DNA of 64,000 nt from Neorhizobium sp. NCHU2750 (GTDB taxonomy: Bacteria; Pseudomonadota; Alphaproteobacteria; Rhizobiales; Rhizobiaceae), in contig NZ_CP030829.1 of assembly GCF_003597675.1 (NCBI RefSeq), positions 384,011 through 448,010 of the forward strand. The letters are read 5' to 3'. Position 1 is the stretch's first letter; each line of letters begins with the position of its first letter. The position numbers and the translations under genes are program-made. Of this stretch, positions 37,962 to 59,025 are shown piece after piece. Under the pieces are notes generated by a model that saw only the letters and a program-made list of their open reading frames with translations, had not been told where the DNA came from and did no database searches.

Positions 37962-38037
37962 CGTCTTTCTCCAATTGGCATCCGCCGACCTGAGGCCGGA
38001 TTGCCCGCCTCTTTGGACAGATCGGGAAAAGCAGGGA

Positions 38038-39426: not shown

Positions 39427-39762
39427 TATCTTACACCGTCAAGTATGCGTCCAAGTATGCTAGCCGGCACCCATCGGACGGGCTTTAAAATCGTCATTAT
39501 CATAGCATCGTTCTTTCACAGATTGTCGACATCTTGTCTGCTGCCCGGCGCTGCATTTGCACCGATGAATCTCAGGGCGACGACCGGCCTCACCGGCAAG
39601 TGGCAGGAGCCCGTTCGATCGATGCGCTGCCTGCAAGGCAAAGGTGAAAATTGAACCCACCCATGCAGGATTTCCACCTAGTTTCCGACACGTTGCGAAT
39701 ATAGCCTGTCGCGCGATTCGTCGTCCCGGTCTGGACGACACATGACATTCAAGGAGACGACG
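39427..39762. other. divergent intergenic region between M20 and ftsZ2 genes
   Basis: About 336 bp with no convincing coding frame. It must contain both divergent promoters. I see no clear operator or repeat. Confidence 0.4.
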
Positions 39763-40734
39763 ATGACGGATATCAAAAGCGGTCTTGTCGAACTAAAGCC
39801 GCAGATCACCGTGATCGGCGTCGGCGGCGGCGGCGGCAACGCGATCAACAACATGATCGCCGAAAATTTGCGCGGCGTGGAATTTGTCGCGGCCAATACC
39901 GATGCGCAGGTTCTGGCCACTTCCAAGGCATCGCGACGCATCCAGCTCGGCACCCAGGTTACCGAAGGCCTCGGCGCCGGCTCGCTTCCGGATGTCGGCC
40001 GCGCGGCTGCGGAAGAATCGCTCGATGAAATCATGGACCATCTCGCCGGCTCGCATATGTGCTTCGTCACCGCCGGCATGGGTGGCGGAACCGGTACGGG
40101 TGCTGCTCCGGTCATCGCGCGGGCTGCCCGCGATGCCGGCATCCTGACGGTCGCGGTCGTCACCAAGCCTTTCACCTTCGAAGGCCAGCGACGGATGAAG
40201 ACGGCAAACGAAGGCATCGAGGCGCTGCGCGATGCGGCAGATACCGTCATCGTTATTCCCAACCAGAACCTGTTCCGCATCGCCGATGCCAAGACCAGCT
40301 TCGCCGATGCCTTCATGATCGCCGACCGGGTGCTTTATTCAGGCGTCGGCTGCATCACCGATCTGATCGTCAAGGAAGGTCTCATCAACCTCGATTTCGC
40401 CGATGTGAGATCGGTCATGCGCAACATGGGCCCGGCAATGATGGGCACCGGCGAAGCCTCCGGCGATGGTCGCGCGCTTGCGGCCGCCGAAGCAGCGGTT
40501 GCCAACCCGCTGCTCGACGAGATCTCGATGAAGGGCGCCAAGGGCGTGCTGATCTCGATTTCCGGCGGCACCGACATGACCCTGTTCGAGGTCGACGAAG
40601 CGGCAAGCCGTATCCGCGACGAGGTGGAAGTGGATGCCGACATCGTCGTCGGCGCGATCTTCGATCCCAATCTCGACGGCAAGTTCCGCGTCTCTGTGGT
40701 TGCGGCCGGCATAGGCGACCGCCGGCCGGTCTGA
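39763..40734 (+). CDS. ftsZ2: short FtsZ paralogue lacking the C-terminal tail
   Basis: The 323-residue protein covers only the tubulin-like GTPase and its C-terminal subdomain. Motifs are intact: [24 protein letters not shown], the G-box [13 protein letters not shown] and the synergy (T7) loop [13 protein letters not shown], which supplies the Asp for GTP hydrolysis. The protein stops right after the [10 protein letters not shown] strand, so the linker and the conserved peptide that binds FtsA are missing. AGGAG precedes ATG 39763. Sinorhizobium FtsZ2 has this same short form beside a long FtsZ1. It is monocistronic here, away from any division cluster. It may co-polymerise with or modulate the main FtsZ. 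Confidence 0.95.
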
Positions 40735-41483: not shown

Positions 41484-42512
41484 CTAGATCATCCGTTTCG
41501 GATCGAGTTGCGTTTGAAACGGATGCAGGTCGCGACTGGGCGAGATACGGCTCGGATCGCCCGCATCGAGAAGGACGTGATGGCGGTCCTCTGTCGGAGA
41601 CGCTCCATAGACCTCCCTGTAGCGCTGGAGGAAATGCGAATAGGAGCTGAAGCCGCATCTGCTGCTGATCGTGGCAAAGTCCAGATTGCTCGCCTTGACC
41701 AGTTTGCGCGCGCGCGAAAGACGTATCTTCCGGTAGTAATCAGCCATCGTGCAATCGAACGCTTCCGCAAAGAGGCGATCGAGATGGCGTCTCGAAACCT
41801 TCGCCTTGGCCGCAATCTCCCCGATGCTGAGAGGTTCCTCGATCGCAGCCTCCATCTCGCGACAGGCATCGCGGACCACCGGCTGCAGACCATTATAGGC
41901 CGAGGTGAAAAGATCGTCCTGCGGTGCGCTGACGTCGCGACGATAGGGATAGATGATGATGTTGGCGACGCGGGCAGCCACCAATGCTCCCAATTGCTTG
42001 GCGATCAGATGCAGCATCATGTCGATGCATGCGGACCCGCCGGCACAGGTCATGCGTCGGTCGGAAAAGGTAAAGACCCGCCGGACAAAACTTACCTTGG
42101 GAAACAGTTGGGCGAAAAGTGGCAGGTTGTTGAAATGGGACGTTGCCGTATGGCCGTCCATCACGCCGGCCTTGGCCAGATGATAGACACCGCTTTCAAT
42201 AGACCCAAGCGTCTTGCCGTGCCGGTCGTAGCGGCGCAGCAGGCTGAGAGTGCTTTCCTGCTGGTAGGCATCGTGACTGAAGCTGGAACTGACGATCAGC
42301 GCATCAAAACCCTGAAGATCTGACACATGTCCCGACGTATCGAGACCGAGACCCGCGCTGGATCTCACCGGCGTCTCCATGTCATGCACGAGAACCCATT
42401 CGAAAGGCGGCTCGGTATAGAGAGAGTTTGCCACCCTCAGCGTCTCGATCGCCGATATCACGCCCAGCATCTGGAAATTCGGTAACAACAGGAATGCCAG
42501 TTTATACATCAT
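41484..42512 (-). CDS. GlxA-family AraC-type regulator with Cys-to-Glu change
   Basis: The 342-residue protein has an N-terminal DJ-1/PfpI-like domain (1-185) and an AraC HTH (about 230-325; IAAKAKVSRRHLDRLFAEAFD and CGFSSYSHFLQRYREVYG). At the position of the DJ-1 nucleophile Cys it has Glu (SIESGVYHLAKAG), so it cannot be an enzyme. Acidic residues here are common in the GbdR/CdhR/ArgR group, which senses betaines, carnitine or arginine. It is the last gene of the minus-strand side of the 41.5-54.1 kb island and is the natural candidate to bind the four repeated sites at 45943-46074. The start could also be ATG 42509. Confidence 0.9.
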   Translation of the reverse strand: MMYKLAFLLLPNFQMLGVISAIETLRVANSLYTEPPFEWVLVHDMETPVRSSAGLGLDTSGHVSDLQGFDALIVSSSFSHDAYQQESTLSLLRRYDRHGKTLGSIESGVYHLAKAGVMDGHTATSHFNNLPLFAQLFPKVSFVRRVFTFSDRRMTCAGGSACIDMMLHLIAKQLGALVAARVANIIIYPYRRDVSAPQDDLFTSAYNGLQPVVRDACREMEAAIEEPLSIGEIAAKAKVSRRHLDRLFAEAFDCTMADYYRKIRLSRARKLVKASNLDFATISSRCGFSSYSHFLQRYREVYGASPTEDRHHVLLDAGDPSRISPSRDLHPFQTQLDPKRMI

Positions 42513-42590
42513 ACCCGCCCGTTCATGTCGGGCGAGTATTGCTGCCGCGCGCCCGCTTTTCCAGTCCGAAAGTGCGGGGCGCCAATTCGG

Positions 42591-43763
42591 TCATAGCTGG
42601 AATGTCGCCCAGCGCCATTCGGCAAGACGCGCCTGGTTGATACTGATGCCAAGCCCCGGCCGATCGTTAACCGGGATGCTGCCGTTCCTGACCGTATCCT
42701 CGATCGGGTCTTCGACGAAATCGACATGGCCCGGAATGCGTGCCCAGTAGGGGAAATGCTCCTGAATGTAGAAATTCGGGACGGATGCCGAGAAATGCAT
42801 CCCGACGGCCGTCGATACGGCGGAGGCGCAGATATGCGGCTGAACCTTCAGGCTGTAGGTTTCGGCCATGGCGGCAATCCGCCGGGCTTCCATCAGGCCC
42901 CCCGTATTGGCGATATCCGGCTGCAGGATGTCGACTGCCCGTGATTCGAGAACGTCCCGGAAGTCATAGCGCGTATAAAGCCTTTCGCCGACGGCAATGC
43001 TCTGCTCGATCGAATTCGCGAGCTTGACCAGGGCACCGGTATCGCCAGGGACAGCCGGCTCTTCCACATAGGTTATGTCGTATTCCGCGACCCGGCGGCA
43101 GAAGCGGATCGTGTCGTCGAGCGAGAGCCCGGCCGACAGATCCAGCATGATCTCGACATCCGGCCCGACAGCCCGACGGATTTCGGAGATGTTATAGAGC
43201 GCTCGGCGCACGACGTCCGGATCCGAGCAGGCACGGAAAGAAGGATGCCTCAGACGTCCCTCGGGCAGAATCTTGACGAAGGGGTAGAATTTCAGGGCCT
43301 TGTAGCCGTCCTTTGCAGCCTTCTCGGCCGCAGCCGGCAGGTCCGCATCCTTGGTCGCGCCAAAATACCAGCCATTGGCATAGGCTCTCAGATCATCATG
43401 GATGCGACCGCCGAGCAGTTCGTAGACGGGTACGCCGAGCGCCTTGCCCTTGATGTCGACCATTGCCTGCTCGATCGCGCTCATGGCCGAAAACGCCACG
43501 GCGCCTCCACCTTTTGCCCAGAAGCCGTGGTCGTAAATCTCCAGCCACAGACGTTCGGAGCGGAACGGATCAACCCCGCCCTGCATGTAGCGTTCGATAA
43601 TATCCTTCAGCATGCCGGCCGCCGCCGTGCCGCCGATGCCGTAGGCCACGCCCGCCTCGCCTATGCCGACCGTGCCGTCGTCGGTAATGAGTTCGAGAAT
43701 GATCGGCCTGATGCCGCCGCTTTCGATGAGGTAAATATTGGCAGTCTTGATCTTCAAGTGCAT
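42591..43763 (-). CDS. mandelate racemase/muconate lactonizing enzyme family protein
   Basis: The enolase-superfamily enzyme of about 390 residues has the N-terminal capping domain and the barrel metal ligands Asp in IMLDLSAGLS, Glu in YVEEPAVPG and Glu in IAVGERLYTR. The general-base pair expected for the mandelate racemase subgroup is visible: Asp in ILQPDIANTGG and His in KVQPHICASA. This subgroup abstracts the alpha-proton of a carboxylate, giving racemases and acid-sugar dehydratases. The ATG at 43763 has GGAG directly against it, so translation may begin at the in-frame TTG at 43757, six bases from that GGAG. It follows the StcD-like gene by 13 bp and probably epimerises or dehydrates an intermediate of the same pathway. 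Confidence 0.9.
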   Translation of the reverse strand: MHLKIKTANIYLIESGGIRPIILELITDDGTVGIGEAGVAYGIGGTAAAGMLKDIIERYMQGGVDPFRSERLWLEIYDHGFWAKGGGAVAFSAMSAIEQAMVDIKGKALGVPVYELLGGRIHDDLRAYANGWYFGATKDADLPAAAEKAAKDGYKALKFYPFVKILPEGRLRHPSFRACSDPDVVRRALYNISEIRRAVGPDVEIMLDLSAGLSLDDTIRFCRRVAEYDITYVEEPAVPGDTGALVKLANSIEQSIAVGERLYTRYDFRDVLESRAVDILQPDIANTGGLMEARRIAAMAETYSLKVQPHICASAVSTAVGMHFSASVPNFYIQEHFPYWARIPGHVDFVEDPIEDTVRNGSIPVNDRPGLGISINQARLAEWRWATFQL

Positions 43764-43776
43764 CTCCAATGCGGGT

Positions 43777-45852
43777 CTAGAGCGTTTGGCAAAGACGTGT
43801 GGCATCCAGGATCGCCGCATGGATGTCACGCGAGGATACGGCGTCGCCGATCCGGTAAAGGAGCCAGCCATTCTCATCATGATCGATCAGAGGCTGAGCC
43901 TCACCGGCAACGAAGGCATCGAGATCGATGATGCCCTGGTTGAGGGAGTTGGGTGCAAGAGCATGATAGAGATCGTCGACCGGAAGCGTGCCGCGCTCGA
44001 CGACAACTCGGTCGCATTCGACCTCCTCCACCTCCAGCGTGTATTCGTTGATCAACGTCGCAACCAGATGGTTGCCGCGGCGCTCCACCGAGCCCAGCCG
44101 CTTGTCGGGGCGCAGGTCGGCTCCGATCTTGTAGAGGCCCCGCATGGCGAACGGCCGGTCCAGGTAGCTCATTTCCTTGCCCGGAGCGCTATCCGGTGTG
44201 ACGTAAATCACCTGTGCCCCACGCTCGCCGATCGTCTGCGCGCCGATAATGCCACTCAACGTGCCAACGGCATCGAAGAAAAGCACCTTGCCGGTCATCG
44301 TTCCCCGGTTCTCGGTGACTTCCCACAGGGTTTCGACATGCTCGGCTCCGCCGATCTCGTTTTCCATGTTGTCCGGCATGCCACCGGTCGCCAGGATGAC
44401 GATGTCTGGGGAAGTTTCAGCGATCATCTCTTCGTCGGCGAAACAGTTGTAGCGGATCTCTGCTCCAAGACGCGCAAGTTCGCTCACCCGCCAGTCGACA
44501 ATGCCGATCAGGTCCCGACGGCCGGACAGGCGTGAGGCAAGCAGCAGCTGGCCGCCAGCCTGCGGCGCCGCTTCCAGCAACGTGACGACATGGCCGCGCT
44601 CCGCCGCGACGCGGGCAGCTTCCAGCCCTGCCGGCCCGGCGCCGACCACGGTCACACGCTTCTGTATTTCGGACCGCTCGATCATGTGAGGCAGTTGCTT
44701 CTCCCGCCCGATCGATGCGTTGTGGATACATCTGCGCTGCCACGAACAATAGGTGGCGCCGACGCAGGGACGGATCGTCTCCTCCTGCCCTTCAGACAAT
44801 TTGCGGGCGATATGCGGGTCGGCGATATGCGCCCTGGTCATTCCGACGAGATCGACGAGCCCTTCGCCCACCGCATGCCGTGCGGTTGCAAGATCCGTGA
44901 TCCGGGCCGCGTGGAATGTCGGCAGACCGACATGCTTGCGGAACGCGGCAATGAAGGGAAGCTGGGGCGCAAGCCGAACGGCCATCCCCGGCATATATTC
45001 GGCCAAGCCGATTTCGGTATCGATGCGGCCATAGGTGAGGTTAAAGAAATCGACGAGGCCAGACTGCTCATGCAGTCGGCCCATGGCGAGATATTCCTCG
45101 TCGCTCATCGCATCGTCATGCCCCTCGCCGACCGCCATGCGCAGGCCGACAAGAAAGCGATCACCGACCTGGCGGCGAATTTCCTCCAATATTCGAAGAC
45201 CAAAACGGGCACGGTTTTCCAGCGACCCGCCATATTCGTCGGTTCGCTGATTGATCGTCGGCGACCAGAACTGGCCGACGAGATGGCCGTGGACATGGAT
45301 CTCAAGCCCGTCCAGGCCGCCTTCGCGACATCGCCGCGCCGCTTCGCCGAATTCCAGGATGACGCGCTCGATATCGTGCCGCTCCATCGCCTTGGTGAAG
45401 CCGCGATGCGATGGCTCGCGATAACGGGACGGCGATATCGTGGGCAGCCAATTGTCCGAACGCCAGTGGCTGCGGCCACCAAGATGGGTGATCTGGCACA
45501 TGATGGCCGCACCATGCTGATGGATACGTTCGGAGAATTCACGGAAATAGGGGATAATCCTGTCGTGGCCGACAGACAACTGGCCGAAGACGGAGCCGGA
45601 ATCCGGCGACACGTTCGACGAGCCGCCGAACATGGTAAGGCCGATGCCGCCCTTGGCCTTTTCCTCATGATAGAGCTGATAGCGCTCCTTCGGCATGGCA
45701 TCTTCACCGTAACTGATCGCATGGCTTGTGCTCATGATGCGATTGCGAAGGGTGAGATGACCGATGCGAAGCGGTTGAAGCAGCGGATCGCGAGACCGGC
45801 TCGGAGAGGGATCGCTGGACGGAAATGTAGATTGCGCCTGCTGGGGGATCAT
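43777..45852 (-). CDS. StcD/DgcA/trimethylamine dehydrogenase-like FMN-FAD-[4Fe-4S] oxidoreductase
   Basis: The 691-residue protein joins an OYE-type TIM barrel (about 25-370; LLQPLRIGHLTLRNRIMSTSH), a [4Fe-4S] cysteine cluster (CVGATYCSWQRRC, plus preceding context) and a FAD/NAD(P) domain (VTVVGAGPAGLEAARVAAERGH; VILATGGMPDN). Relatives are 2,4-dienoyl-CoA reductase, trimethylamine dehydrogenase, DgcA and N-methylproline demethylase StcD, which is similar in length. In this family N-demethylation releases formaldehyde. It shares a divergent promoter with an ABC importer and lies next to a mandelate-racemase-family gene. The context favours an N-methyl amino acid demethylase over a fatty-acid reductase. 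No strong ribosome-binding site is seen at ATG 45852. Confidence 0.88.
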   Translation of the reverse strand: MIPQQAQSTFPSSDPSPSRSRDPLLQPLRIGHLTLRNRIMSTSHAISYGEDAMPKERYQLYHEEKAKGGIGLTMFGGSSNVSPDSGSVFGQLSVGHDRIIPYFREFSERIHQHGAAIMCQITHLGGRSHWRSDNWLPTISPSRYREPSHRGFTKAMERHDIERVILEFGEAARRCREGGLDGLEIHVHGHLVGQFWSPTINQRTDEYGGSLENRARFGLRILEEIRRQVGDRFLVGLRMAVGEGHDDAMSDEEYLAMGRLHEQSGLVDFFNLTYGRIDTEIGLAEYMPGMAVRLAPQLPFIAAFRKHVGLPTFHAARITDLATARHAVGEGLVDLVGMTRAHIADPHIARKLSEGQEETIRPCVGATYCSWQRRCIHNASIGREKQLPHMIERSEIQKRVTVVGAGPAGLEAARVAAERGHVVTLLEAAPQAGGQLLLASRLSGRRDLIGIVDWRVSELARLGAEIRYNCFADEEMIAETSPDIVILATGGMPDNMENEIGGAEHVETLWEVTENRGTMTGKVLFFDAVGTLSGIIGAQTIGERGAQVIYVTPDSAPGKEMSYLDRPFAMRGLYKIGADLRPDKRLGSVERRGNHLVATLINEYTLEVEEVECDRVVVERGTLPVDDLYHALAPNSLNQGIIDLDAFVAGEAQPLIDHDENGWLLYRIGDAVSSRDIHAAILDATRLCQTL

Positions 45853-45942
45853 GGGGCTCACGGCGGTTTGGTGGCTGACGCCCGGGCTTCCCGGTGCTGT
45901 CTTGCATCTAAGCCTGTCTGCAATGGTGGACCGGCGGATAGC

Positions 45943-46074
45943 TGGAATTCGGACATATCGCATGCCCATTTTGGACATTGGCAGCGACTTCAACCCAAAC
46001 TGGCGCCTGCCATCAGCAGTCGAATGGCCGACGCGAAAATGTCCAAATTAGGAAGTCATCACGTCCAAAATGGG
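45943..46074. promoter_or_regulatory. four mirrored 15-bp operator repeats in the divergent promoter
   Basis: In the 408-bp gap between the StcD-like and binding-protein genes, the motif AATGTCCAAAATGGG occurs four times. On the minus strand: 45965-45979 (exact) and 45943-45957 (TATGTCCGAATTCCA). On the plus strand: 46038-46052 (AATGTCCAAATTAGG) and 46060-46074 (CACGTCCAAAATGGG). Each pair is a direct repeat with exactly 22-bp periodicity, and the two pairs point toward the two divergent genes. This is how AraC-type regulators bind, on one DNA face, so the GlxA-type protein at 41484 is the likely ligand. The rest of the gap shows no gene. Confidence 0.75.
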
Positions 46075-46260
46075 ACTTTCGTTCGTCAATCTTTTTTCCA
46101 AAGATCATCGTCAAGAGCGATGCAAGACTGACGGTCGCACCAGACGCCCGAAACACCCGATAACGGGCATCGACGCACAAAAAGCACCAAAAATCTACGG
46201 CAAGCCGTCTTGATTGACGGGAGGCCTTGCCGTGGCAATTCATAAAAAGGGAACCACAGA

Positions 46261-47862
46261 ATGACCAGTTCAAAGCTTCCGCCTGGCAGTCCCCTGATCG
46301 ATCCCAATACGCTGATCGGCTGTTCGATGAGCCGCCGGATGTTTACCGGCGGCCTGCTCGCCGGCGGCTTGGCCACGATGATGGCGCCCGGTCTTGGTTA
46401 CGCCCAGGCGGTCGAGACCCCCAAGCGCGGCGGCTCGGTCAAGCTCGCACTCGTTCAGCAAACCTCGACGGATACCTTCGACTCCGCCCGCTACGACAAG
46501 GGCAACGACTATATCCGCGGCACCTCGGTCTATAGCTATCTGACGACGATAGACCGCGGCGGCGCGCCGCAGCCCGAGGTGGCCACGCAATGGGAACCGA
46601 ATGCCGATGCCACCGTCTGGAACTTCAAGTTCCGTCAGGGCATCACCTTCACCGACGGCAGCGCGCTGACGGCAAAGGACATTGCCTTCTCGATCATGCG
46701 CCACAAGGATCCAGCAGTTGCTTCGACCGCAAAACAGCTGGTCGGCAACATCCAGTCCGTCGATCCCGACGGCACCGATGGCTTCACCGTCAAACTGGCG
46801 ACGCCTGATGTCGATCTGCCGATCCTCGTTGGCCTCTTCCAGTTCGCTCTGGTCAAGGCGGGCACAACCGACTTCTCCAAGCCGATCGGCACCGGCGCCT
46901 TCACCGTCGAGGACTTCCAACCGGGACTGAGGACGGTCCTGGTCAAGAACCCCAACTACTGGAAAGAGGGCCAACCATATATCGACCGGTTCGAAATGTT
47001 TCCCATTCCGGACAATGCGGCCCGTGCAAACGCCCTCCTCTCCGGCGATGTCGACATGGTTCTGGAGCTGCGCGGCAACGGGATTCAGGATGTCGAAGCC
47101 TCGAGCGTCGCCGATGTGTTCGTCACGGAAAGCACCCGCTTCACCGCCGTCCAGGCGCTGATGAACCAGCTTCCCTCGTCCAATGTCGACCTCACCCTTG
47201 CCATTGCTCATCTGATCGATCGCAAGAGACTGCTCGACACGGTCATTCGCGGATACGGGACGATTGCCAACGATCAGCCGATCGGCCCGTCGAGCCCGCT
47301 CTACAATCACGACCTGGAGCAGCGCGGCTATGACCTCGACAAGGCCAAGTATCACTTCCAGAAATCGGGGATAGGTCAGGCGCCATTCGAAGTCTCCGTT
47401 TCCGACGCCGTGCTCTATTCGGTGGATCTCGGCCAGCTTATTCAGCGCGAGGCGAGCCGCGCCGGGATGAAACTGTCCATCCGTCGCGAACCATCCGAAA
47501 GCTACTGGTCGGCAGTGGCGGGCAAAAAGCCCTACGCGACGACCAATTTCCACCCGCGCCCGACTTATGGGATGCTGCTCAACCTTGCCTGGCGAAAGGG
47601 CGCAGTCTGGAACTTCTCGCACTATGAGAATGACAAGCTGGAGAAACTGATCGTCGAATCCGGCTCGACCCTGGATATGGGGTTGCGCAAGGAGCAATAT
47701 GCCGACATCCAGACGATCCTCCACAATTCGGGTGCGATCATCATCCCCTGCTTCCTCAACTACGTCGACGGCGTATCCAAGAAGATCAAGGGCATGAAAC
47801 CGCTGCAGATCGGCAATCTCGGCGGCTTCAACTTCACAGACAAGATCTGGATCGACGCCTGA
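46261..47862 (+). CDS. Tat-exported peptide-type ABC substrate-binding protein
   Basis: The 533-residue family-5 binding protein has a twin-arginine signal (SRRMFTGGLLAGGLATMM, about residues 23-40, cleaved near YAQA). Mature motifs include PEVATQWEPNADATVWNFKF, ALTAKDIAFSIMRHKD and KPIGTGAFTVEDFQPG. It is the first gene of the plus-strand operon of the island and is expected to bind the compound that the StcD-like and GlpD-like enzymes degrade. AGGGAA precedes the ATG at 46261. Confidence 0.92.
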   Translation: MTSSKLPPGSPLIDPNTLIGCSMSRRMFTGGLLAGGLATMMAPGLGYAQAVETPKRGGSVKLALVQQTSTDTFDSARYDKGNDYIRGTSVYSYLTTIDRGGAPQPEVATQWEPNADATVWNFKFRQGITFTDGSALTAKDIAFSIMRHKDPAVASTAKQLVGNIQSVDPDGTDGFTVKLATPDVDLPILVGLFQFALVKAGTTDFSKPIGTGAFTVEDFQPGLRTVLVKNPNYWKEGQPYIDRFEMFPIPDNAARANALLSGDVDMVLELRGNGIQDVEASSVADVFVTESTRFTAVQALMNQLPSSNVDLTLAIAHLIDRKRLLDTVIRGYGTIANDQPIGPSSPLYNHDLEQRGYDLDKAKYHFQKSGIGQAPFEVSVSDAVLYSVDLGQLIQREASRAGMKLSIRREPSESYWSAVAGKKPYATTNFHPRPTYGMLLNLAWRKGAVWNFSHYENDKLEKLIVESGSTLDMGLRKEQYADIQTILHNSGAIIIPCFLNYVDGVSKKIKGMKPLQIGNLGGFNFTDKIWIDA

Positions 47863-47927
47863 TCGGTACCAACACCCGCGGGCGCTCAGCCGGCGGGTGC
47901 CTTTCCGTAACCGTGAGGGGGGCGTAA

Positions 47928-48887
47928 ATGCCGCTTGCAATCTTTATCGTCCGTCGCCTGATCATCATCCTGGCCTTGTTGCTGGCCGTCTCCATTCTCG
48001 TCTTCGTCGGATGCGAAATCCTGCCCGGCGATGTCGCACAGGTGGCACTCGGACAGTTCGCCACCCCGGAGAATGTCGCGGCTCTCAGAGAGCAGCTCGG
48101 CCTTAATGAGCCAGCAGCCTGGCGATATCTGAACTGGCTCGGAGCGCTCGTCCTGCACGGCAACTGGGGAACGTCTATCGTCAGCAAGCTGCCGGTGACC
48201 GCGATGTTGTCGGAGCGGCTGGGCAATACCCTGATGCTGGCAGCCTTCACCACGGTAATTGCCGTCCCGACTGCGATTGCACTGGGTATCGCCATGGCGA
48301 TCAACAACGGCGGCCGTACCGATCGCGTGCTGACAATGATCGTACTCGCCTTTTCCGCGGTGCCGGAATTTCTGGTCGCCTCCGTCGCGGTCCTGTTCTT
48401 CGCCCTTCACCTGAAATGGCTGCCGACGATCTCCTACCTCAATCCCGGAATGGGCTTCTGGGAGACGCTGGAGGCCATGATCCTGCCCGCCGGTACACTT
48501 GCCGTCGTCGTCAGCGCGCAGATTGCCCGCATGACCCGCTCCATCATCATGAACATCGTTGCCTATCCCTATATCGAGATGGCGATGCTGAAGGGTGTTC
48601 CCGTCTATCTGGTCGTCATCCGGCATGCGCTCATCAATGCGATAGGCCCGATCGTCAATGTGGTGGCGCTCAACATCGCCTACATGGTTTCGGGCATCCT
48701 GGTGGTGGAAACGGTCTTTGCCTATCCGGGCCTCGCCCGCTTGATGGTCGATGCGGTCCAATCCCGCGATTTCCCGGTAGTGCAGGCCTGCGCTCTCATT
48801 TTCTGCGGCAGCTACGTGCTGCTGATCCTGCTTGCCGACATTGTGGCCTCGCTTTCGGACCCGCGCTCGATGCCGGCCAGAGCCTGA
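47928..48887 (+). CDS. peptide-type ABC transporter permease (DppB-like)
   Basis: The 319-residue inner-membrane permease starts LAIFIVRRLIIILALLLAVS and has the DppB motifs LPGDVAQVALGQ and VVETVFAYPGLARLMVDAV. GGGGGG precedes the ATG. It is 65 bp after the binding-protein gene and 22 bp before the partner permease. It is the half-pore of the island's importer. Confidence 0.94.
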   Translation: MPLAIFIVRRLIIILALLLAVSILVFVGCEILPGDVAQVALGQFATPENVAALREQLGLNEPAAWRYLNWLGALVLHGNWGTSIVSKLPVTAMLSERLGNTLMLAAFTTVIAVPTAIALGIAMAINNGGRTDRVLTMIVLAFSAVPEFLVASVAVLFFALHLKWLPTISYLNPGMGFWETLEAMILPAGTLAVVVSAQIARMTRSIIMNIVAYPYIEMAMLKGVPVYLVVIRHALINAIGPIVNVVALNIAYMVSGILVVETVFAYPGLARLMVDAVQSRDFPVVQACALIFCGSYVLLILLADIVASLSDPRSMPARA

Positions 48888-48909
48888 GATCCGGAAAAGG
48901 AGTAGAGGC

Positions 48910-49758
48910 ATGACCCTCACCTTGAGCACCAATGACGATTTTCGGCCGGACCGTTCCGGGCCGCTGCGTTCGCTGACTTTCATCCTGGCGGCGACGGTCA
49001 TCGGCGTGATGATCTGCGCAGCGCTTCTCTCCATCGTCTGGCTGCCGCATGATCCGACGGACTTCGTCACCGACGAGCCTTTCGCCCCGATCGGCCCCGG
49101 CCTGTGGCTGGGCTCCGACTATATGGGCAGGGACGTCCTTTCCAGATTGCTGGAGGGGACCCGACTGACACTCGGCATGGCCCTGAGCGCCACCGTGCTT
49201 GCCCATCTGATCGGCAGCAGCCTCGGCCTTGTGGCTGCGGCCCGAGGCGGTGCGACAGATATGGCTCTGTCGCGCATCGTCGACGTCATCCTGTCCCTTC
49301 CGAAGGTCATTGTCGGACTGGTGGTCGTCGCCGCTCTCGGACCTTCGATCTGGGTCATCGTCATTATGGCAGCCATCGTCTATTCGGCCGGGGTATTCCG
49401 CATTGCGCGGGCCTTAGGTGCAGACCTGGCGCGCCTGGAGTTCATCGAGATCGTGAAATCGCGCGGCGAAAATCTGGCCTGGGTGATTTTTGGCGAAATG
49501 CTGCCGCACGTGATCCGCCCGCTGGCCGCCGATTTCGCCATCCGGACCAGTTTCGCGATCCTGTTCATGTCCAGCCTCAGCTTTGTCGGGCTCGGCGTAC
49601 AGCCGCCGCTGACCGACTGGGGCGGCATGGCGCACGAAAATCTCGATGGACTGTCGACCAACCCATGGGCGGCACTCGCTCCATCGATTGCGATCGCACT
49701 CGTCTCGATCAGCCTCAACCTGCTGGTCGATGCGACGGAAAGGAAGATGAAATGGTGA
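48910..49758 (+). CDS. peptide-type ABC transporter permease (DppC-like)
   Basis: The 282-residue permease carries GSDYMGRDVLSRLLEGTRLTLGMAL, the DppC signature, and an EAA-type loop near EFIEIVKSRGENLAWVIFGEMLP. AAGGAG precedes ATG 48910. Its final codons overlap the start of the double-ATPase gene by seven bases. It pairs with the DppB-like permease. Confidence 0.94.
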   Translation: MTLTLSTNDDFRPDRSGPLRSLTFILAATVIGVMICAALLSIVWLPHDPTDFVTDEPFAPIGPGLWLGSDYMGRDVLSRLLEGTRLTLGMALSATVLAHLIGSSLGLVAAARGGATDMALSRIVDVILSLPKVIVGLVVVAALGPSIWVIVIMAAIVYSAGVFRIARALGADLARLEFIEIVKSRGENLAWVIFGEMLPHVIRPLAADFAIRTSFAILFMSSLSFVGLGVQPPLTDWGGMAHENLDGLSTNPWAALAPSIAIALVSISLNLLVDATERKMKW

Positions 49759-51506
49759 GCCTTTTCGCAACGATGCAGGATGGGGCCAGCGCTTCCGCCG
49801 CGCCAAGAAGTGCCGGCAGTACAACAACCTCCTCCGCACCAGTGGCGGGTGCTGCGAAGGATAGTGTCGCCCTTGAACTCACGGATATCAGGATCTCCAC
49901 GCTAGCGGGGCATGATGTTGTTCGCGGCGTAAGCCTGCAGGTCAATCGCGGCGAGGTCCTTGCGGTTATCGGAGCATCCGGGTCCGGCAAGACGACACTT
50001 GCCCTCACAGCGCTGGGACGACTGCGCCCCGGCCTGGTGTTCAGAAGCGGATCGGTTCGCGTCGGTGGCACGGAGATTGTTGCGGCACCGAGGGGCATGC
50101 TCAATCGCATGCGCGGACGCGTTGTTTCCTACATCGCACAGAGCGCGTCGGCGTCATTCAACCCTCGCATTCGCCTCGGCAGGCAGGTGACGGAATCGGC
50201 CCTTCTTCATCGAAGCCAGAACCGAAGCGAGGCGGATGCCGTTGCCAGGAGAAACTTCGATCTGCTGAGCCTGCCCAGCCCCGAAAAGATTGCCCAGCGT
50301 TTTCCGCATGAAGTTTCCGGCGGCCAGTTGCAGCGCTTCATGATCGCCATGGGCATGCAGGAACAGCCATTGATGCTGATCTGCGACGAACCGACAAGTG
50401 CGCTCGACGTCACCACGCAGGTCGAGGTCATCGCCGAACTCAAGCGGGTCATCAAGGCCCGCAATACGGCAGCCTTGTTCATCAGCCACGATCTGGCGGT
50501 TGTCGCACAGCTGGCCGACAGGATCGCCGTCATGCGGGATGGCGCACTCGTGGAGATCGGTACGACAGAAGAGATCCTCGAGGCGCCGAGAGAGGACTAT
50601 ACCCGCCAGCTTCTCGATGCCTGTCGCCATTTCCCCCCTGCGTTTTCCGGCAAGGCACTTCAAACGGACGAAAGCGGTCCGCCGGCGATCGTCGCCGAGG
50701 ATGTCGTTGCCGGCTATGGCATGACGCGCGATGGCGAACCGGTTGTGACCACCCTTCACGGCACCTCGGTTGCAGTCAGACGCGGAGAAGTCGTTGCATT
50801 GATCGGTGAGTCTGGCTCAGGCAAATCGACCTTTGCGCGCGTCATCGCCGGGCTTTTGCCGTCTCGCTCAGGCACGGTGACGCTCGACGGGCAAGTGCTG
50901 TCGCCGGCAATCGCGACAAGGGACCGCGACCAGCGTCGCAAGATCCAGCTGGTTTATCAATCAGCAGATACCGCCCTGAATTCGCGCCAGACCGCCAGGC
51001 AAATACTCGGGCGGACCCTGACATTCTACCAGGGTCTGAAAGGGCGCAGGCGCGAGGAGCGGACCATCGAGTTGCTCGACCTCGTCCATCTTTCCGCCCG
51101 CTATCTCGACAAGAAGCCGTCCGAGATGTCCGGCGGCGAGAAGCAGCGCCTGAACCTTGCCCGCGCGCTCGCCGCGGACCCCGAGGTGCTGATCTGCGAC
51201 GAGATCACCTCCGCTCTCGACACAATCGTCGCGGTCGGCATTACCGACCTCATCGCCGATCTCAGCCGGCGTCTGGGGCTCGCCGTACTCTATATCAGCC
51301 ACGACCTTGCGACGGTGGCGTCGCTTGCCGACAGGGTGGTTGTGCTGAAAGCCGGGCGGGTCGTCGAAACCGGGGCAACCGAGACGGTGCTGACATCTCC
51401 AGAACATCCCTACACACGGCTGCTTTGCAGCTCCGTGCCGCAATTGCGCATCGGCTGGCTCGAAGAGGCAGAGGCGGTGCGCAGATCGTTTGAGACATCA
51501 CTTTGA
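49752..51506 (+). CDS. double-ATPase peptide-type ABC transporter protein
   Basis: The 584-residue protein has two ATP-binding cassettes after a Ser/Ala-rich lead of about 35 residues. Cassette 1 has GASGSGKTT, VSYIAQSASASFNPR, VSGGQLQRFMIAMGM and LMLICDEPTSALD. Cassette 2 has [38 protein letters not shown] and VLICDEITSALD, where the usual DEP is DEI. ATG 49752 overlaps the end of the permease gene and has AGGAAG upstream; a much longer open frame upstream is an antisense-like artefact over the permease. It energises both permeases. Confidence 0.92.
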   Translation: MVSLFATMQDGASASAAPRSAGSTTTSSAPVAGAAKDSVALELTDIRISTLAGHDVVRGVSLQVNRGEVLAVIGASGSGKTTLALTALGRLRPGLVFRSGSVRVGGTEIVAAPRGMLNRMRGRVVSYIAQSASASFNPRIRLGRQVTESALLHRSQNRSEADAVARRNFDLLSLPSPEKIAQRFPHEVSGGQLQRFMIAMGMQEQPLMLICDEPTSALDVTTQVEVIAELKRVIKARNTAALFISHDLAVVAQLADRIAVMRDGALVEIGTTEEILEAPREDYTRQLLDACRHFPPAFSGKALQTDESGPPAIVAEDVVAGYGMTRDGEPVVTTLHGTSVAVRRGEVVALIGESGSGKSTFARVIAGLLPSRSGTVTLDGQVLSPAIATRDRDQRRKIQLVYQSADTALNSRQTARQILGRTLTFYQGLKGRRREERTIELLDLVHLSARYLDKKPSEMSGGEKQRLNLARALAADPEVLICDEITSALDTIVAVGITDLIADLSRRLGLAVLYISHDLATVASLADRVVVLKAGRVVETGATETVLTSPEHPYTRLLCSSVPQLRIGWLEEAEAVRRSFETSL

Positions 51507-51534
51507 GGCCGCGCGAACAAGCGGGATATGGAAC

Positions 51535-53118
51535 ATGACAGCTCAGCCTATCATCGACGGCAAGAAATACGACGTAATCGTCATTGGCGGGGGAGCTGCC
51601 GGCGCAGCGTCCGCGCAGAATCTTGCCGCAGCCGGATACGAGACGCTGCTGGTCGACCAGGGGGACTTTGCATCCGGCACATCCAGCCGGTCTAGCCGCC
51701 TGCTCTATTGCGGACTTGCCTATTTCTCACCGGATTACGAATTGTGGCGCTTCCTCTATCGCCCACGCGATCTGTTTACGCGCATCCGCATGGCGCGTCT
51801 TTCCATGAGGAACAGGACCCACATTGCCAGCACCATGCCGGAACGGGTCAACCCCTACACCTTCTTCTTTCCCGTCGAGAAAAAGGGGAAATATGCCGGC
51901 TGGAAGGTAGCGCTCGGTTATCGCGCCCTCAGCCTGTTCGGCTCGCGCAAAGCGCCGCTCGGCTACCACCACCTCGAAACCGAAAAGGCGGCCTCCAGGC
52001 ACGGATTGGTGCGCCATATGGAGAAGTCCAAGCTCTCCGGCCTCGCCTGTTTCCGTGAATACCAGTACAACTGGGCGGAGCGGATATGCATCGATACCGT
52101 GATGGATGCCGAACGCTGCGGCGCGACGATCGCAAATTACACGCAGGTTACCGCAATCGACCGAGCGGGAGACGACTGGCGCATCACCCTTGCCCCGGCA
52201 GGCCATCCGGGCAAGGCACCGAAGCCGGCCTCCAATGCGACCATTCAGGTCTCGGGCAAGATCCTGGTGAACACCGCCGGACCATGGGCTGACCGTGTGT
52301 TGAAGAAGGCAATCGCTTCACCCAAGAAGCACCTTGTCGGCATCAAGGGCGTCAACGTCGTGGTTCGCCTGCCGGATGATTGCCGCGGCCAGGGGATGGA
52401 GACGATCAGCTCGATTGACCAGCCTTTCTACCTGATGCCGTGGGGCGATTACCATTTCTTCGGCCCGACGGAGACCATCTATGAAGGCCCGCCGGAAGAC
52501 GTCCGCGTGCTTGACGAGGAGATAGATTTCATCATCGCGGAAGCAAACCGGGTCTTCCCCAAGCTCAATCTCACACGCAAGGATGTCGTCTATAGATGGT
52601 GTGGCGTGCGTCCGCGCACCTCGGACACCGGCAAGATGGGGGTAAAGTCCTTCACCATGCACGACATGGCTGCCGAGGGCATGCCGAATGCACTGACGAT
52701 CACCGGTACGCCGATCATGGTCCACCGGCATGCGGGCCGCAAGGTTGCGGCCGAAGTCGCCCGCAGAATAAGCCCTTCCGGCCGGGCGCGGCCGCTTTCC
52801 TATGCCGCGCGCCTGCTTCCGTCCGGCGATGGGCCGAAGATCGGTGGCGTGCCGGTGGAAAGCCTGCGATTTGCGGCGGCGAACGAACATGTCCACACCC
52901 TGCTCGACCTGATGTTCCGACGCGTCAACATGGGATGGCAGGGGGACATGGGCATTCCGCATGCTCGCGCGGTGGCACAGTCCGTTGCGGATATCCTCGG
53001 CTGGGACGAGCAAAGGATCGATGAAGAGGTCGATGCCTACCGCGCCTACGTTGCAGATCATTTCGATCCGCGCATCCTGAAATCGCCTGCCGCCGACTAT
53101 GCGGAACAGACAGCATGA
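51535..53118 (+). CDS. GlpD-like FAD-dependent oxidoreductase
   Basis: The 527-residue flavoprotein has an N-terminal dinucleotide fold YDVIVIGGGAAGAASAQNLA and the GlpD-like signature GDFASGTSSRSSRLLYCGLAYF. That is the pattern of glycerol-3-phosphate dehydrogenase and related DAO-superfamily enzymes; the usual GGLRYL is CGLAYF here. It probably oxidises a C-N or C-O bond and passes electrons to the quinone pool or oxygen. The context (importer, StcD-like demethylase, ornithine-cyclodeaminase-type reductase) favours an amine or hydroxy-acid substrate rather than glycerol-3-phosphate. It overlaps the next gene by ATGA. Confidence 0.82.
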   Translation: MTAQPIIDGKKYDVIVIGGGAAGAASAQNLAAAGYETLLVDQGDFASGTSSRSSRLLYCGLAYFSPDYELWRFLYRPRDLFTRIRMARLSMRNRTHIASTMPERVNPYTFFFPVEKKGKYAGWKVALGYRALSLFGSRKAPLGYHHLETEKAASRHGLVRHMEKSKLSGLACFREYQYNWAERICIDTVMDAERCGATIANYTQVTAIDRAGDDWRITLAPAGHPGKAPKPASNATIQVSGKILVNTAGPWADRVLKKAIASPKKHLVGIKGVNVVVRLPDDCRGQGMETISSIDQPFYLMPWGDYHFFGPTETIYEGPPEDVRVLDEEIDFIIAEANRVFPKLNLTRKDVVYRWCGVRPRTSDTGKMGVKSFTMHDMAAEGMPNALTITGTPIMVHRHAGRKVAAEVARRISPSGRARPLSYAARLLPSGDGPKIGGVPVESLRFAAANEHVHTLLDLMFRRVNMGWQGDMGIPHARAVAQSVADILGWDEQRIDEEVDAYRAYVADHFDPRILKSPAADYAEQTA

Positions 53119-54110
53119 AGGGTCGCAATCTGAGAATGGTCGATGCGGAAACGGTACACCGTGTCGCCAAATGGGAAGGGCTGATCGAAACGATGCGGCA
53201 ATGCCATGTCGGACAAAAACCGATGGGAAGCCGCCTGCTGATGACGCAGCCTCGCGATGGCGGCCAGCCCGACGCTCTTATCCTCGTGCCGGCCTGGCAG
53301 GAAGGAGAGGCGATCGGGGTAAAGCTCGTGACCTCCTTTCCGCAGAATACCACACGCCATGGCCTGCCGACGGTCGACGCACTCTATGTGCTTTTCGACC
53401 CGAACACCGGCAAGCCATCCACGATCATCGATGGCGAGGCGATCGTCTTCCGCAAGACGGCCTCCGACACCGCGCTCGGCGTCAAACTACTCTCGTCACC
53501 CTCCGCAACGCGCCTGCTGATGGTGGGAGCGGGTGCACTGGCCCCCTACGTCATCGAGGCGGTACGTGCCGTGCGGTCAGGCATTCGCGAAATCGCAATC
53601 TGGAACCGCACACACGAGCGCGCCGTCGAACTTGCCGATCAGGTCGGCAAGTCGGCCAATGTGAGCGCGCGTGCCGTGGGCGACCTGTCGGAGGCGTTGG
53701 GCTGGGCGGATATCGTCATTTCTGCGACCATGTCCGAAAAGCCGCTGATCGCAGGTGCGCGCCTCAAGCCGGGCGCCCATGTTGGGCTGATCGGTTCCTT
53801 CACGGCCGGCATGCGGGAGGCTGACGACGATCTGATGCGGCGTGCGGCGATCTATGTCGATGATCTCAGCGCGATCGAAAAAACCGGCGAATTCATTGAG
53901 CCCATTTCACGCGGCGTAATCTCGGCAGATGATGTCCTCGGCGACCTTTTCGCGCTATGCCAGGGCCGTTGCCCGCCTCAGCATGCAGACACCGTCACGG
54001 TGTTCAAGAATGGTGGTGCGGCACATCTCGATCTGTTTGTCGCGCAGCATATCCTTGCCGTTCTCAACGGGAATCAAACTGTCGCCATGTCGGATAGGGT
54101 TCCGAATTGA
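53115..54110 (+). CDS. ornithine cyclodeaminase/mu-crystallin family protein
   Basis: The 331-residue enzyme has the family substrate region with GVKLVTSFPQNTTRHGLP (active-site Lys) and an NAD(P) fold LLMVGAGALAPYVIEAVRAV, then IWNRTHERAVELA. Members include ornithine cyclodeaminase, alanine dehydrogenase and delta1-pyrroline-2-carboxylate reductase. It is coupled to the GlpD-like gene by a four-base overlap and closes the operon. If the pathway degrades a proline- or pipecolate-like betaine, an imine reductase would fit well, but this is inference. Confidence 0.9.
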   Translation: MKGRNLRMVDAETVHRVAKWEGLIETMRQCHVGQKPMGSRLLMTQPRDGGQPDALILVPAWQEGEAIGVKLVTSFPQNTTRHGLPTVDALYVLFDPNTGKPSTIIDGEAIVFRKTASDTALGVKLLSSPSATRLLMVGAGALAPYVIEAVRAVRSGIREIAIWNRTHERAVELADQVGKSANVSARAVGDLSEALGWADIVISATMSEKPLIAGARLKPGAHVGLIGSFTAGMREADDDLMRRAAIYVDDLSAIEKTGEFIEPISRGVISADDVLGDLFALCQGRCPPQHADTVTVFKNGGAAHLDLFVAQHILAVLNGNQTVAMSDRVPN

Positions 54111-54516: not shown

Positions 54517-55530
54517 TTAATCAGCAGGTCGCAATCCGCCTGCGGAAAAGTCTTCTCCGTCTCTTTGGTTTTCCGCGACGTTACCGCCAAATTTTCGATA
54601 CCAGAGGCCCGTGATGATCGGCACGACGATAGACGTCACGATGATGCAGATCGCCACAAGTATCGTGGCGCTGCCGACGGCCGGGGCAAATTGCGGTGCT
54701 ACGGCTGCGATAGCCAGCGGATTGGCCGCCGCAGCGCCTGCGGTCGAAGACGCGGCAAGTCCGGCAGTTCCATTTCCACCACCGATGTATTTGTCGGCCA
54801 GTATGAGCGGGATCCCGGTCAATACGATCACGGCCAACGCGAGCACGATACCCAGCCCAGCGAGTGGCGACAACAGAGTGCTCAGATCAATGGTGTTGCC
54901 GAGGGCAAAGGCAAAGAACGGGATCATCAGCACGCTTCCCGGGGCAAACAACGCCCTGAGCTTCGGATCGAGATTTCCCAATGCGAAGCCGACGATGAAG
55001 GGGAGAACCGCACCAATAAAGATCTGCGGCTCGAAATGTGCCACGCCCGACGAGCCGAGGATGATCATGCTCATAAGCGGCCCGGATTCGATGGAGGTCA
55101 AGACGAAAGCACCAGCTTCCTCCTTCGTGCCATAGCTTTGCATCAACGAGGCATAGAGTCCCCCATTGGTCATATCCATGGCGCACACGATCGCGAGCAC
55201 AGACAAGCCAGCGAAAATGCCGGTCTGTATGCCCTCAGGGGGCAGAAACAGCGAAGCAATCATCGTGATGATCCAGGCGGTCACGAATTTGGTGACAACG
55301 ATAGTCCCGGATTTGCGCAAAACAGTCCCGGTGGAGCTCAACTTGATCGAAGCTCCCATGCAAAAAAACCACACGGCGAGAATAGGGACCACACCGGTCA
55401 TGATCCCCTGCGTGAAGCCCTTGAAATAGGCTGGTGCATCCGGGGCAAATGTCTTGCAAAGAGCGCCGAGCAGCAGCGGCGTCAGCATCAATCCGCCGGG
55501 TATGCGGTCGATAGTATCCTTGATATTCAT
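54517..55530 (-). CDS. kdgT: 2-keto-3-deoxygluconate permease
   Basis: The 337-residue membrane protein of the KdgT family has about ten helices. It opens with [20 protein letters not shown], and continues with [20 protein letters not shown] and [15 protein letters not shown]; the later [19 protein letters not shown] is typical. It imports 2-keto-3-deoxygluconate (a product of pectin or alginate breakdown) with protons. GGAGGAG lies upstream of ATG 55530. No KDG kinase or aldolase is nearby, so it is an orphan transporter here, unless the mandelate-racemase-family enzyme of the neighbouring island makes a keto-deoxy acid. Confidence 0.93.
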
Positions 55531-56346
55531 CTCAATCTCCTCCCCTGAGTGCCTGGCGCTCAGAGCATTGTTCAAATTTCAATTCGAAAACGCAGGCTCC
55601 CCCCGCGTGTGTCGATCTTTCAGACATGTGATAATTTTCGAGGCGGTTTCCTTCTAACGATGGATTACAGGCGGCTTGGCGCTCACCATGTGGGCAGCCA
55701 GTGGCGTATGGGCGACACGCGGTCGATAGCTGGATAGGCAGTGATTATGCCTGGACAGGCACACCGCCAGTCATCAAATCCCTGAGATCGGGCGTGCGTG
55801 TGAAATTCCGCGGGTACAGCACTGCCACTCGCAGTGCTGTCACCCTACGAAGAAGGGGACCTCGAAAAAATCATGATTATGCTCGATTGAAGCATGCAAT
55901 GATGCCAGCACCTGCCAGATTTCAGCAACTTCACGATACTCCTCCGTTCCCGTGATCCGGCTGTTGGCCTTGCTTGCAAGGCCTTCGCTAAGCTCGTCCT
56001 TGGCTGTTCAAATGTCAAATATTTTCGAGGATTTGTATTTCTGAAAATCGGCGCAACCTGCCTGCCGGTGCAGCTCTTCCGCACAGATGTCGCACGCAGT
56101 CGACGTAACCGTTGCACAAGTGTTCGTTGACTGTCGGAAGGGCCAGTGGCGATTGCGCCCAGGTCAATCTAGTGAACCCCGTCAGTCGAGGTCTGGGCGG
56201 GACGAGATGAGCTGGAGGCCGCTATCATGGGGCCGCATCCGCCATCGTGAGCGGTGGAGCAAAATCTCTGATGGCTTTGCCAACGAACACGCAAAAGGGA
56301 AGAGCTGTCCCACATGCGTCTTGCCTCATGCATTGGATAGCGGCAT
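55531..56346. other. 0.8-kb gene-poor region with a perfect hairpin
   Basis: Only very short frames of doubtful coding character are found. ACAGCACTGC (55816-55825) and GCAGTGCTGT (55831-55840) form a perfect 10-bp stem with a 5-nt CACTC loop. The region must contain the kdgT promoter; it may also hold a small RNA or decayed genes. Confidence 0.45.
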
Positions 56347-59015: not shown

Positions 59016-59025
59016 CGGATCTGCC

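Follow-up and report, generated by a model that had tools for sequence, protein, structure and literature searches.

Nine genes arranged as two divergent operons in Neorhizobium sp. NCHU2750 would together make up a single regulated unit for the catabolism of an N-methylated α-amino acid, a reading to which, with the full route set out below, we give roughly even chances. They occupy positions 41484 to 54110 of the window (the whole stretch of 64,000 nucleotides that was analysed), where the two operons and all the genes named by the first-pass annotation were found, three genes lying on the minus strand and six on the plus strand. Gaps within the operons range from -56 to 78 bp, the negative value being an ORF overlap at the second permease, whose start is unsure. 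A long plus-strand ORF opposite the flavoenzyme gene (44590-46131) was taken as spurious because neither Pfam nor NCBIfam gave a match. The GC content of the region (0.58-0.62) is ordinary and no tRNA was found at the locus, which weakens its earlier description as an island; the cassette is nevertheless accessory, since the gene of its enolase-superfamily enzyme is absent at E≤1e-110 from 20 listed genomes of the same genus or family. A literature search, limited in wording and collection, gave no recognised description of the nine-gene set.

The cassette is conserved as a unit. Two further genomes (G055 and G092, loci L109 and L110) have the complete set of nine together on a single strand (56-73% identity), and in G400, which belongs to another bacterial order, the genes for the GlpD-like enzyme, the ornithine-cyclodeaminase-type (OCD) enzyme, the flavoenzyme, the enolase-superfamily (MR) enzyme and the regulator lie within 7 kb (49-60% identity). 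The 20-kb G400 stretch contains no recognisable importer; an ORF upstream of its GlpD-like gene (L171, 4620-5918) was considered as a transporter replacing the ABC importer and rejected, its Pfam match being of the O-antigen-ligase type. Whole-genome searches gave six other genomes in which the MR enzyme is at least 57% identical, and in all six a GlpD-like gene and a flavoenzyme of this family lie no more than about 10 kb away; at 48-49% identity none of four genomes has both, the contig of one of them (G269) extending just some 2 kb to one side. With contig matching between match lists used only as a proxy for linkage, six contigs, the window's own among them, are common to all three lists among the best 120 matches listed, and 16 of the 38 MR contigs of at least 10 kb (window included) also appear on either other list. 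The set is not rigid: in Microvirga aerilata the flavoenzyme is replaced by a DgcA-type one that has a DUF3483/Fe-S protein and an ETF-alpha-type ORF as neighbours, the stretches from G028 and G138 contain no recognisable OCD gene, and in M. nodulans a P5CR-like gene takes its place. The constant partner of the MR enzyme is the GlpD-like enzyme and not the OCD enzyme.

The flavoenzyme (43777..45852, minus strand; start methionine at 45852 placed from homologues) is an OYE/TMADH-type protein with Oxidored_FMN and Rossmann domains, and we propose that it is an N-demethylase. Both the tree and the sequence motifs group it with StcD/HpbA and the DgcA-type enzymes, apart from a dienoyl-CoA-reductase-like outgroup row. 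All 30 ingroup rows share an Fe-S-region motif, C-[VI]-G-A, and 29 of them have TSH (P0035 has TAH), the window flavoenzyme carrying both, with C-V-G-A where the outgroup row reads CISCN. It falls outside the StcD/HpbA clade (three rows, 100/99), which suggests a third group beside StcD/HpbA and the DgcA type. Membership of the trimethylamine dehydrogenases appears not to apply: alanine aligns at the place of Cys30 (the TMADH reference chain being itself a C30A mutant) and only part of the Fe-S cysteine set is present, Cys30 being presumably the site of covalent FMN and four further cysteines those of the Fe-S cluster. Its structure model (mean pLDDT 79.8) gave matches that are family-wide only.

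The neighbourhoods of this flavoenzyme group differ in content from those of its relatives. DgcB, ETF and Hpb-type Rieske genes were found within 10 kb in none of 30 rows, a count covering loci of at least 12 kb in which the flavoenzyme is flanked by 4 kb in either direction (L029, L030 and others fall outside it), with many rows picked through GlpD-like matches and with L037 and L175 representing one locus; both ETF references came from L085, and one of them, which Pfam does not match, could only have added ETF matches. A search of the genome for a DgcB-like gene, run without a positive control, gave no match. A GlpD-like gene lies nearby in only 5 of 17 flavoenzyme-chosen loci against 1 of 45 StcD and DgcA rows (Fisher p 0.005, hand count), or in 5 of 18 when the likewise flavoenzyme-chosen plasmid row L169 is added (p 0.006), rows being taken singly with duplicates and kinship ignored. 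In the Planktomarina locus L030, too short for the 30-row count, the flavoenzyme and an OCD gene lie near a LigXa-type Rieske gene; the Rieske and glutamine-synthetase domains of this locus suggested a homarine pathway, which was set aside as the literature search gave no usable cluster description.

The MR enzyme (MR_MLE domains; minus strand, true start 43763, stop 42591) is a proposed epimerase, with dehydratase activity possible. K156-x-Y158, D206/E232/E258, D281/H308 and E333 are invariant in 35 aligned rows, one of which duplicates the window protein, and we assume from the MR mechanism that the K-x-Y motif and the His-Asp pair would make proton transfer possible on either face. Among NCBIfam models it scores best with the galactonate dehydratase NF010624 (240.3 bits against a cut-off of 311). 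Galactonate dehydratases carry a catalytic histidine two residues after the first metal ligand, where this enzyme has a near-invariant serine (DLS), and it is probably not a D-galactonate dehydratase. An identity as an HpbD-type epimerase was also rejected, there being no BLAST match to Paracoccus pantotrophus HpbD at E≤1e-5.

The GlpD-fold FAD enzyme (about 51535-53118, plus strand; DAO 134 bits), a proposed amine (D-amino acid) dehydrogenase, shares the fold of GlpD but is not a true GlpD. Its AF2 model (mean pLDDT 91.7) has GlpD/GlpO as nearest structures, followed by glycine/sarcosine oxidases; the best GlpD NCBIfam model reaches 150 of 360 bits, and across 40 aligned sequences the Arg of GVRP is kept while the other GlpD-type Arg/Lys places, which we take to be substrate-binding, are changed. 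The last gene (53115..54110, plus strand) encodes an ornithine-cyclodeaminase-family ketimine reductase (OCD_Mu_crystall 172 bits), whose best model among 19 NCBIfam families is the Pyr2C/Pip2C reductase PRK06141 (293.5 bits, cut-off 322).

The importer is of the class-5 (peptide/nickel/opine) type, consisting of an SBP_bac_5 binding protein (46261..47862, 221 bits), two BPD_transp_1 permeases (47928..48887 and 48832..49758, the latter as an ORF whose true start is probably downstream) and a fused double ATPase of the DppD-DppF type with two ABC_tran stretches (about 49752-51506), all on the plus strand. Relatives in L085, L109 and L110 are 68-71% identical for the binding protein and 57-61% for the ATPase. 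Importers linked to this flavoenzyme group are of the peptide or polar-amino-acid type, not of the betaine type. Agrocinopine binders and AgaA are among the binding proteins of class 5.

The regulator (GlxA/GbdR-like; 41484..42512, minus strand) combines a GATase-like N-terminal domain (DJ-1/PfpI at 24.1 bits, just under the cut-off of 26.6) with an AraC-type HTH (HTH_18, 68.8 bits) and a candidate direct-repeat operator, as in the GATase/AraC regulators of the GbdR and CdhR kind. GbdR is its best NCBIfam model, at 249.6 of the 480 bits that define the equivalog, and the gene is kept beside that of the MR enzyme in L109, L110 and L171 (58-66%). Two tandem direct-repeat operators are predicted in the divergent region. 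The one facing the flavoenzyme operon (45943..45976, minus strand) matches a 28-bp pattern exactly at 45949-45976, with three mismatches to a stricter two-half-site pattern, and the one facing the importer operon (46019..46074, plus strand) has two good half-sites and possibly a third at a 22-bp step. Exact matches to the pattern in the 6.35-Mb genome are only these two, one before each operon, and a 22-bp tandem direct repeat also precedes the operons of relatives; scanning the divergent region for sigma-70 promoters gave no match. That the same genes co-occur elsewhere and that exact copies of the operator pattern are confined to this place in the genome argues for a grouping beyond chance.

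In the route that we propose, the order of reactions and the substrate being read from gene content, the class-5 importer, so classed by homology, would take up an N-methyl amino acid that is most likely secondary or tertiary, not quaternary, and may be cyclic. The MR enzyme would then epimerise the α-carbon from L to D, and the flavoenzyme would remove the N-methyl group as formaldehyde, a role suggested by its family, the common motifs and the DgcA-type replacement in Microvirga. Oxidation of the resulting (D-)amine to an imine would fall to the GlpD-fold enzyme, and the OCD enzyme, by homology a reductase, would use NAD(P)H to convert the ketimine to an L-amino acid entering central metabolism; this last step is not universal, as the lack of a recognisable OCD gene in the stretches from G028 and G138 and the P5CR-like replacement in M. 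nodulans indicate. The GbdR-like regulator may sense the substrate or an intermediate and activate both operons by binding the 22-bp repeats. The conversion from L to D and back to L looks circuitous. The first-pass annotation had named an N-methylated amino acid or a betaine as substrate. The former agrees with a dedicated import-and-degrade cassette, given the grouping and motifs of the flavoenzyme, the Microvirga swap and GbdR as best regulator model, even if below cut-off; the latter is less well supported, given the 30 rows lacking Hpb-type Rieske or ETF genes, the importer types and a separate StcD/HpbA-like gene in this genome.

Other substrates must be weighed against this one. The flavoenzyme could demethylate an N-methylated 3-hydroxy amino acid, from which the MR enzyme, acting as a dehydratase, would then eliminate the β-hydroxyl; the OCD enzyme would reduce the resulting enamine or ketimine to the L-amino acid, much as 3-hydroxyproline is catabolised. 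We regard this as rather unlikely, although the best NCBIfam models of the MR enzyme are acid-sugar dehydratases, the cis-3-hydroxyproline dehydratase model NF043002 gives a weak match (35.9 of 500 bits), and a route of this kind, in which an OCD enzyme reduces the Pyr2C formed by dehydration, is established (PMC4113996); the serine in place of the dehydratase histidine and the constancy of the GlpD-like rather than the OCD partner both speak against it.

An opine or Amadori compound is somewhat less probable again. Here the GlpD-like enzyme would cleave the secondary amine of an N-(carboxyalkyl) or N-(sugar) amino acid and the other enzymes would process the amino acid part. In A. tumefaciens F2, relatives of the flavoenzyme (46%), the GlpD-like enzyme (38%) and the OCD enzyme (41%) lie beside a deoxyfructosyl-amino-acid operon, adjoining FrlC/SIS/FrlR-annotated genes and a polar amino-acid ABC importer, and close relatives of these F2 genes are grouped in S. 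meliloti Rm41; the agrocinopine- and AgaA-containing class of the binding protein also agrees with such a substrate. The F2 and Rm41 flavoenzymes, however, belong in the tree to a sister group and not to the window's own, and no sugar kinase, deglycase or isomerase was found among the nine cassette genes of the window, L109 and L110, ORFs flanking the cassettes being outside this count. The deoxyfructosyl setting of the relatives implies that this gene set may have uses besides demethylation.

That the cassette is the host's pathway for proline betaine (stachydrine) or N-methylproline is very unlikely, in spite of the 45-46% identity of the flavoenzyme to HpbA and the GlpD-like genes found in stc/hpb clusters. 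On another contig the genome carries two genes with a putative role of their own, one StcD/HpbA-like (62%) and one for an Hpb-type Rieske oxygenase (55%), neither of which lies in an hpb-like cluster; because of the former the cassette is probably not the stachydrine pathway, and the two together led to this pathway being set aside as the main reading. A Pfam scan of the cassette also recognised no Rieske, ETF, DgcB or betaine-type ABC gene, and the MR enzyme has no detectable likeness to HpbD. Most improbable is a cassette degrading an unsaturated acid with the flavoenzyme as an ene-reductase of the dienoyl-CoA, bile-acid or NCR type, since against its best PDB sequence match (2-naphthoyl-CoA reductase) and best NCBIfam model (TIGR03997, 456.9 of 793 bits), the latter not discriminating because HpbA has the same best match (468.1 bits), stand its motifs and tree position and the Pfam scan, which recognised no acyl-CoA gene in the cassette.

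If the N-methyl amino acid route is true, it would give roles to three enzyme groups now carrying generic names in public records (galactonate dehydratase, 2,4-dienoyl-CoA reductase and glycerol-3-phosphate dehydrogenase), reach relatives of the solved but unassigned structure 2poz, and extend the N-methyl amino acid demethylases beyond StcD/HpbA and DgcA, the cassette's demethylase appearing from sequence to be a branch of the known betaine demethylases. The predicted sensing regulator and its defined operator would offer a handle for finding the substrate. We consider it possible, though short of an even chance, that the route is new, joining a K-x-Y epimerase to a flavin N-demethylase group devoid of ETF, DgcB and Hpb-type Rieske partners and to a GlpD-fold amine dehydrogenase, followed by a ketimine reductase leading to the L-amino acid pool.

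Among known systems, the hpb/stc clusters of Paracoccus and Rhizobium for hydroxyproline betaine and proline betaine share with the cassette an OYE-type demethylase, in Paracoccus an MR-superfamily epimerase (HpbD), and in some clusters a GlpD-like FAD enzyme and a P5C-reductase-like gene together with StcD/HpbA and ETF. The cassette differs in the tree position of its flavoenzyme, in its dissimilar MR enzyme, in having neither Rieske nor ETF genes, and in the kinds of importer and regulator. The DgcA-type clusters (Rieske, DUF3483/Fe-S, ETF, GATase/AraC), which we take to be the glycine betaine gbcA-dgcAB clusters, have a related flavoenzyme and, in 5 of 13 rows, GlxA-like regulator genes nearby, whereas the cassette dispenses with Rieske, DgcB and ETF and adds the MR, GlpD-like and OCD enzymes. 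The closest solved relative of the MR enzyme, 2POZ (407 bits), is 47-48% identical and has another neighbourhood, with a TRAP binding protein and a C45 peptidase; the sequence printed for it was recognised by eye as the M. japonicum pMLa protein in L165. The 3-hydroxyproline dehydratase/Pyr2C reductase pathways (PMC4113996) share the OCD-type ketimine reductase and differ from the cassette, which has no proline-racemase-family dehydratase and adds the flavoenzyme and the GlpD-like enzyme. Finally, the regulation resembles that of carnitine and betaine catabolism by CdhR and GbdR, with a GATase-AraC regulator and direct repeats at a 21-22 bp step, close to the half-site spacing of CdhR as given in PMC5806209, but the half-site is GGTCGC there and GTCCAA here, and in the cassette one divergent region serves both operons.

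The first-pass annotation had read positions 41484-54110 as a putative catabolic island for an N-methylated amino acid or betaine, and its gene list was borne out by the family assignments, the genes being found as named. ORFs and family profile matches show two divergent operons, in which the widest intergenic gap is 78 bp. The minus-strand operon begins with the OYE/TMADH-type flavoenzyme (45852-43777, with an inferred start); an enolase-superfamily (MR) enzyme comes second (43763-42591), and the last gene (42512-41484) encodes an AraC-type regulator whose N-domain is GATase-like. The plus-strand operon (46261-54110) opens with the four genes of a class-5 ABC importer (binding protein, two permeases and a fused double ATPase), after which come those for a GlpD-like FAD enzyme and an ornithine-cyclodeaminase-family (OCD) enzyme.

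The cassette is flanked by a KdgT-type 2-keto-3-deoxygluconate permease gene (54517-55575, minus strand), whose protein had no BLAST match in the relatives' loci examined. The region 57052-61299 (minus) is likely an iron-siderophore locus: it codes for a TonB-dependent receptor and a binding protein of the ferrichrome/ferrioxamine type (204 of 374 bits), together with an esterase-type protein. On the other side lie a short FtsZ of 330 aa (39742-40734, plus; 397 bits against a cut-off of 295), possibly a second copy, and amidase and M20-type peptidase genes adjoining ABC-type genes (36465-39426, minus). The amidase is 56% identical to those beside a 48% MR paralogue in genomes G060 and G097 (loci L160 and L161).

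Judged from its sequence relatives, the nine-gene cassette is a conserved unit. Genomes G055 and G092 carry the full set on a single strand at 56-73% identity, in the order binding protein, permeases, ATPase, GlpD-like, OCD, flavoenzyme, MR and regulator. G400, which shares only the class with the window host and belongs to another order, has GlpD-like (50%) and OCD (49%) genes pointing towards the flavoenzyme (60%), MR (59%) and regulator (58%) within 7 kb; an O-antigen-ligase-type ORF lies upstream of the GlpD-like gene, and no importer was recognised in the 20-kb stretch around these genes. Microvirga aerilata (L085) keeps MR, importer, GlpD-like and OCD at 50-68%, its flavoenzyme being instead DgcA-type (45%) and preceded by a DUF3483/Fe-S protein, a make-up like that of DgcB, and by an ETF-alpha-type ORF. 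Methylobacterium nodulans groups MR (64%), flavoenzyme (53%) and GlpD-like (34%) genes at one locus together with a polar amino-acid ABC system and a P5C-reductase-like gene.

Whole-genome searches with MR alone, in sets of 397 and 385 genomes, found it at 57% identity or more in six other genomes of four genera (G028, G055, G092, G138 and G218 in the former set, G400 in the latter), and in all six a GlpD-like gene and a flavoenzyme of the window's family lie no more than about 10 kb from it. None of the four genomes with MR at 48-49% (G060, G097, G107 and G269, the last with a contig reaching only about 2 kb on one side) has the pair in the fetched stretch. Plasmid MR relatives at 40-50% adjoin other amino-acid genes: a class-V aminotransferase and a class-5 importer near one, a C45 peptidase near a second and a D-amino acid dehydrogenase near a third.

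In a tree of 31 flavoenzyme rows (30 ingroup and one outgroup), the StcD/HpbA and DgcA-type clades of known demethylases are each supported at 100/99, and the window protein falls in a third group with moderate support (90/99), inside a six-row set at 100/99. The C-[VI]-G-A motif of the Fe-S region is present in 30/30 ingroup rows and a TSH motif close to the N-terminus in 29/30 (TAH in P0035), and both are absent from the outgroup row. An Ala of the window protein aligns with the position of Cys30, the covalent FMN attachment site of TMADH (the printed TMADH chain is itself a C30A mutant). DgcB, ETF or Hpb-type Rieske genes occur within 10 kb of none of 30 third-group rows. A GlpD-like neighbour accompanies 17/30 of them against 2/35 StcD and 1/13 DgcA rows, many of these rows having been chosen via GlpD-like hits. 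The association is genuine, though by no means general: among rows chosen by flavoenzyme only, it holds for 5/17 in the third group against 1/45 StcD plus DgcA rows (Fisher p 0.005; hand count, L037/L175 counted once). The Planktomarina MAG locus L030, excluded from this count for its short flank, has divergently oriented genes for a flavoenzyme (65%) and an OCD enzyme (42%) near LigXa-type Rieske and glutamine-synthetase-family genes, so the third group is not free of every type of Rieske partner.

In the divergent region GTCC-R-A is repeated in tandem every 22 bp, and such repeats face each of the two operons; on the flavoenzyme side the second half-site is poorer. A 28-bp repeat pattern matches the whole genome exactly only twice, both times in this region; at one mismatch it gives seven further matches, which is chance level (reversed control, 11 at up to one mismatch). 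Since the pattern was derived from the same regions, its actual test comes from the genome-wide count and from the other loci. A stricter two-half-site pattern (up to three mismatches) precedes operons in all four regulator-bearing loci, namely the window and those of G055, G092 and G400, standing before both operons in the window and in G400. It occurs in none of the five loci whose fetched stretch lacks the regulator (L085, L142 and L157-L159), against a background of five matches in 1.95 Mb of other loci.

The cassette is probably not the stachydrine pathway, as far as gene comparison indicates. Contig C1 of the host carries, apart from the cassette, genes for an StcD/HpbA-like protein (62%) and an Hpb-type Rieske oxygenase (55%), neither of them in an hpb-like cluster in the neighbourhoods inspected. 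G055 and G092 also have an StcD/HpbA-like gene (62-64%), and the four remaining cassette genomes yielded only a 43-45% flavoenzyme at E<=1e-100; because only these two of six have both, cassette and StcD/HpbA-like gene occur independently. In a stachydrine-type cluster of Rhizobium sp. AB2/73 (L167, 13396-18337), a GlpD-like FAD gene has an ETF-alpha gene on one side and an ETF-ubiquinone oxidoreductase gene on the other, a lead to the electron acceptor of its product.

What the comparisons show directly is which genes are present, how far they are conserved, where the flavoenzyme groups in its tree, and that the operator pattern recurs. We propose that the cassette is an import and degradation route for an N-methylated amino acid, in which the substrate, all of the reactions and their sequence are inferred. 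The importer would take up the substrate, which would undergo epimerisation at the alpha-carbon and N-demethylation, followed by FAD-dependent imine formation and ketimine reduction. Of the 19 NCBIfam families that it matches, the OCD enzyme scores best against the bifunctional Pyr2C/Pip2C reductase (293.5 bits, cut-off 322), and its best PDB match is 7rbp. The main competing explanation makes MR a dehydratase, with the substrate class unchanged. All 35 aligned rows (one duplicating the window protein) keep K156-x-Y158, three metal ligands, D281/H308 and E333, a set that allows epimerisation and may also be compatible with dehydration. The closest solved structure is the functionally unassigned 2poz, and BLAST comparison detected no similarity to the hydroxyproline-betaine epimerase HpbD. 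An opine/Amadori-type substrate is suggested by the gene neighbourhoods of A. tumefaciens F2 (L146) and S. meliloti Rm41 (L144), where flavoenzyme, GlpD-like and OCD relatives occur together with FrlC/SIS-like genes. The F2 set adjoins a deoxyfructosyl-amino-acid operon; in Rm41 (L144, 60-4509) a 47% MR relative lies next to two FAD proteins, of which one belongs to the DAO family and the other combines Pyr_redox_2 with BFD/SO_alpha_A3 domains; the two look like subunits of an opine oxidase or a D-hydroxyproline dehydrogenase.

The putative operator can be compared with that of CdhR, a regulator of the same family that binds GGTCGC direct repeats with a 15-bp spacer (PMC5806209); the cassette has GTCC-R-A repeats at a 22-bp step. 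Overall, we regard the cassette as a variation on the systems already known to demethylate betaines and N-methyl amino acids.
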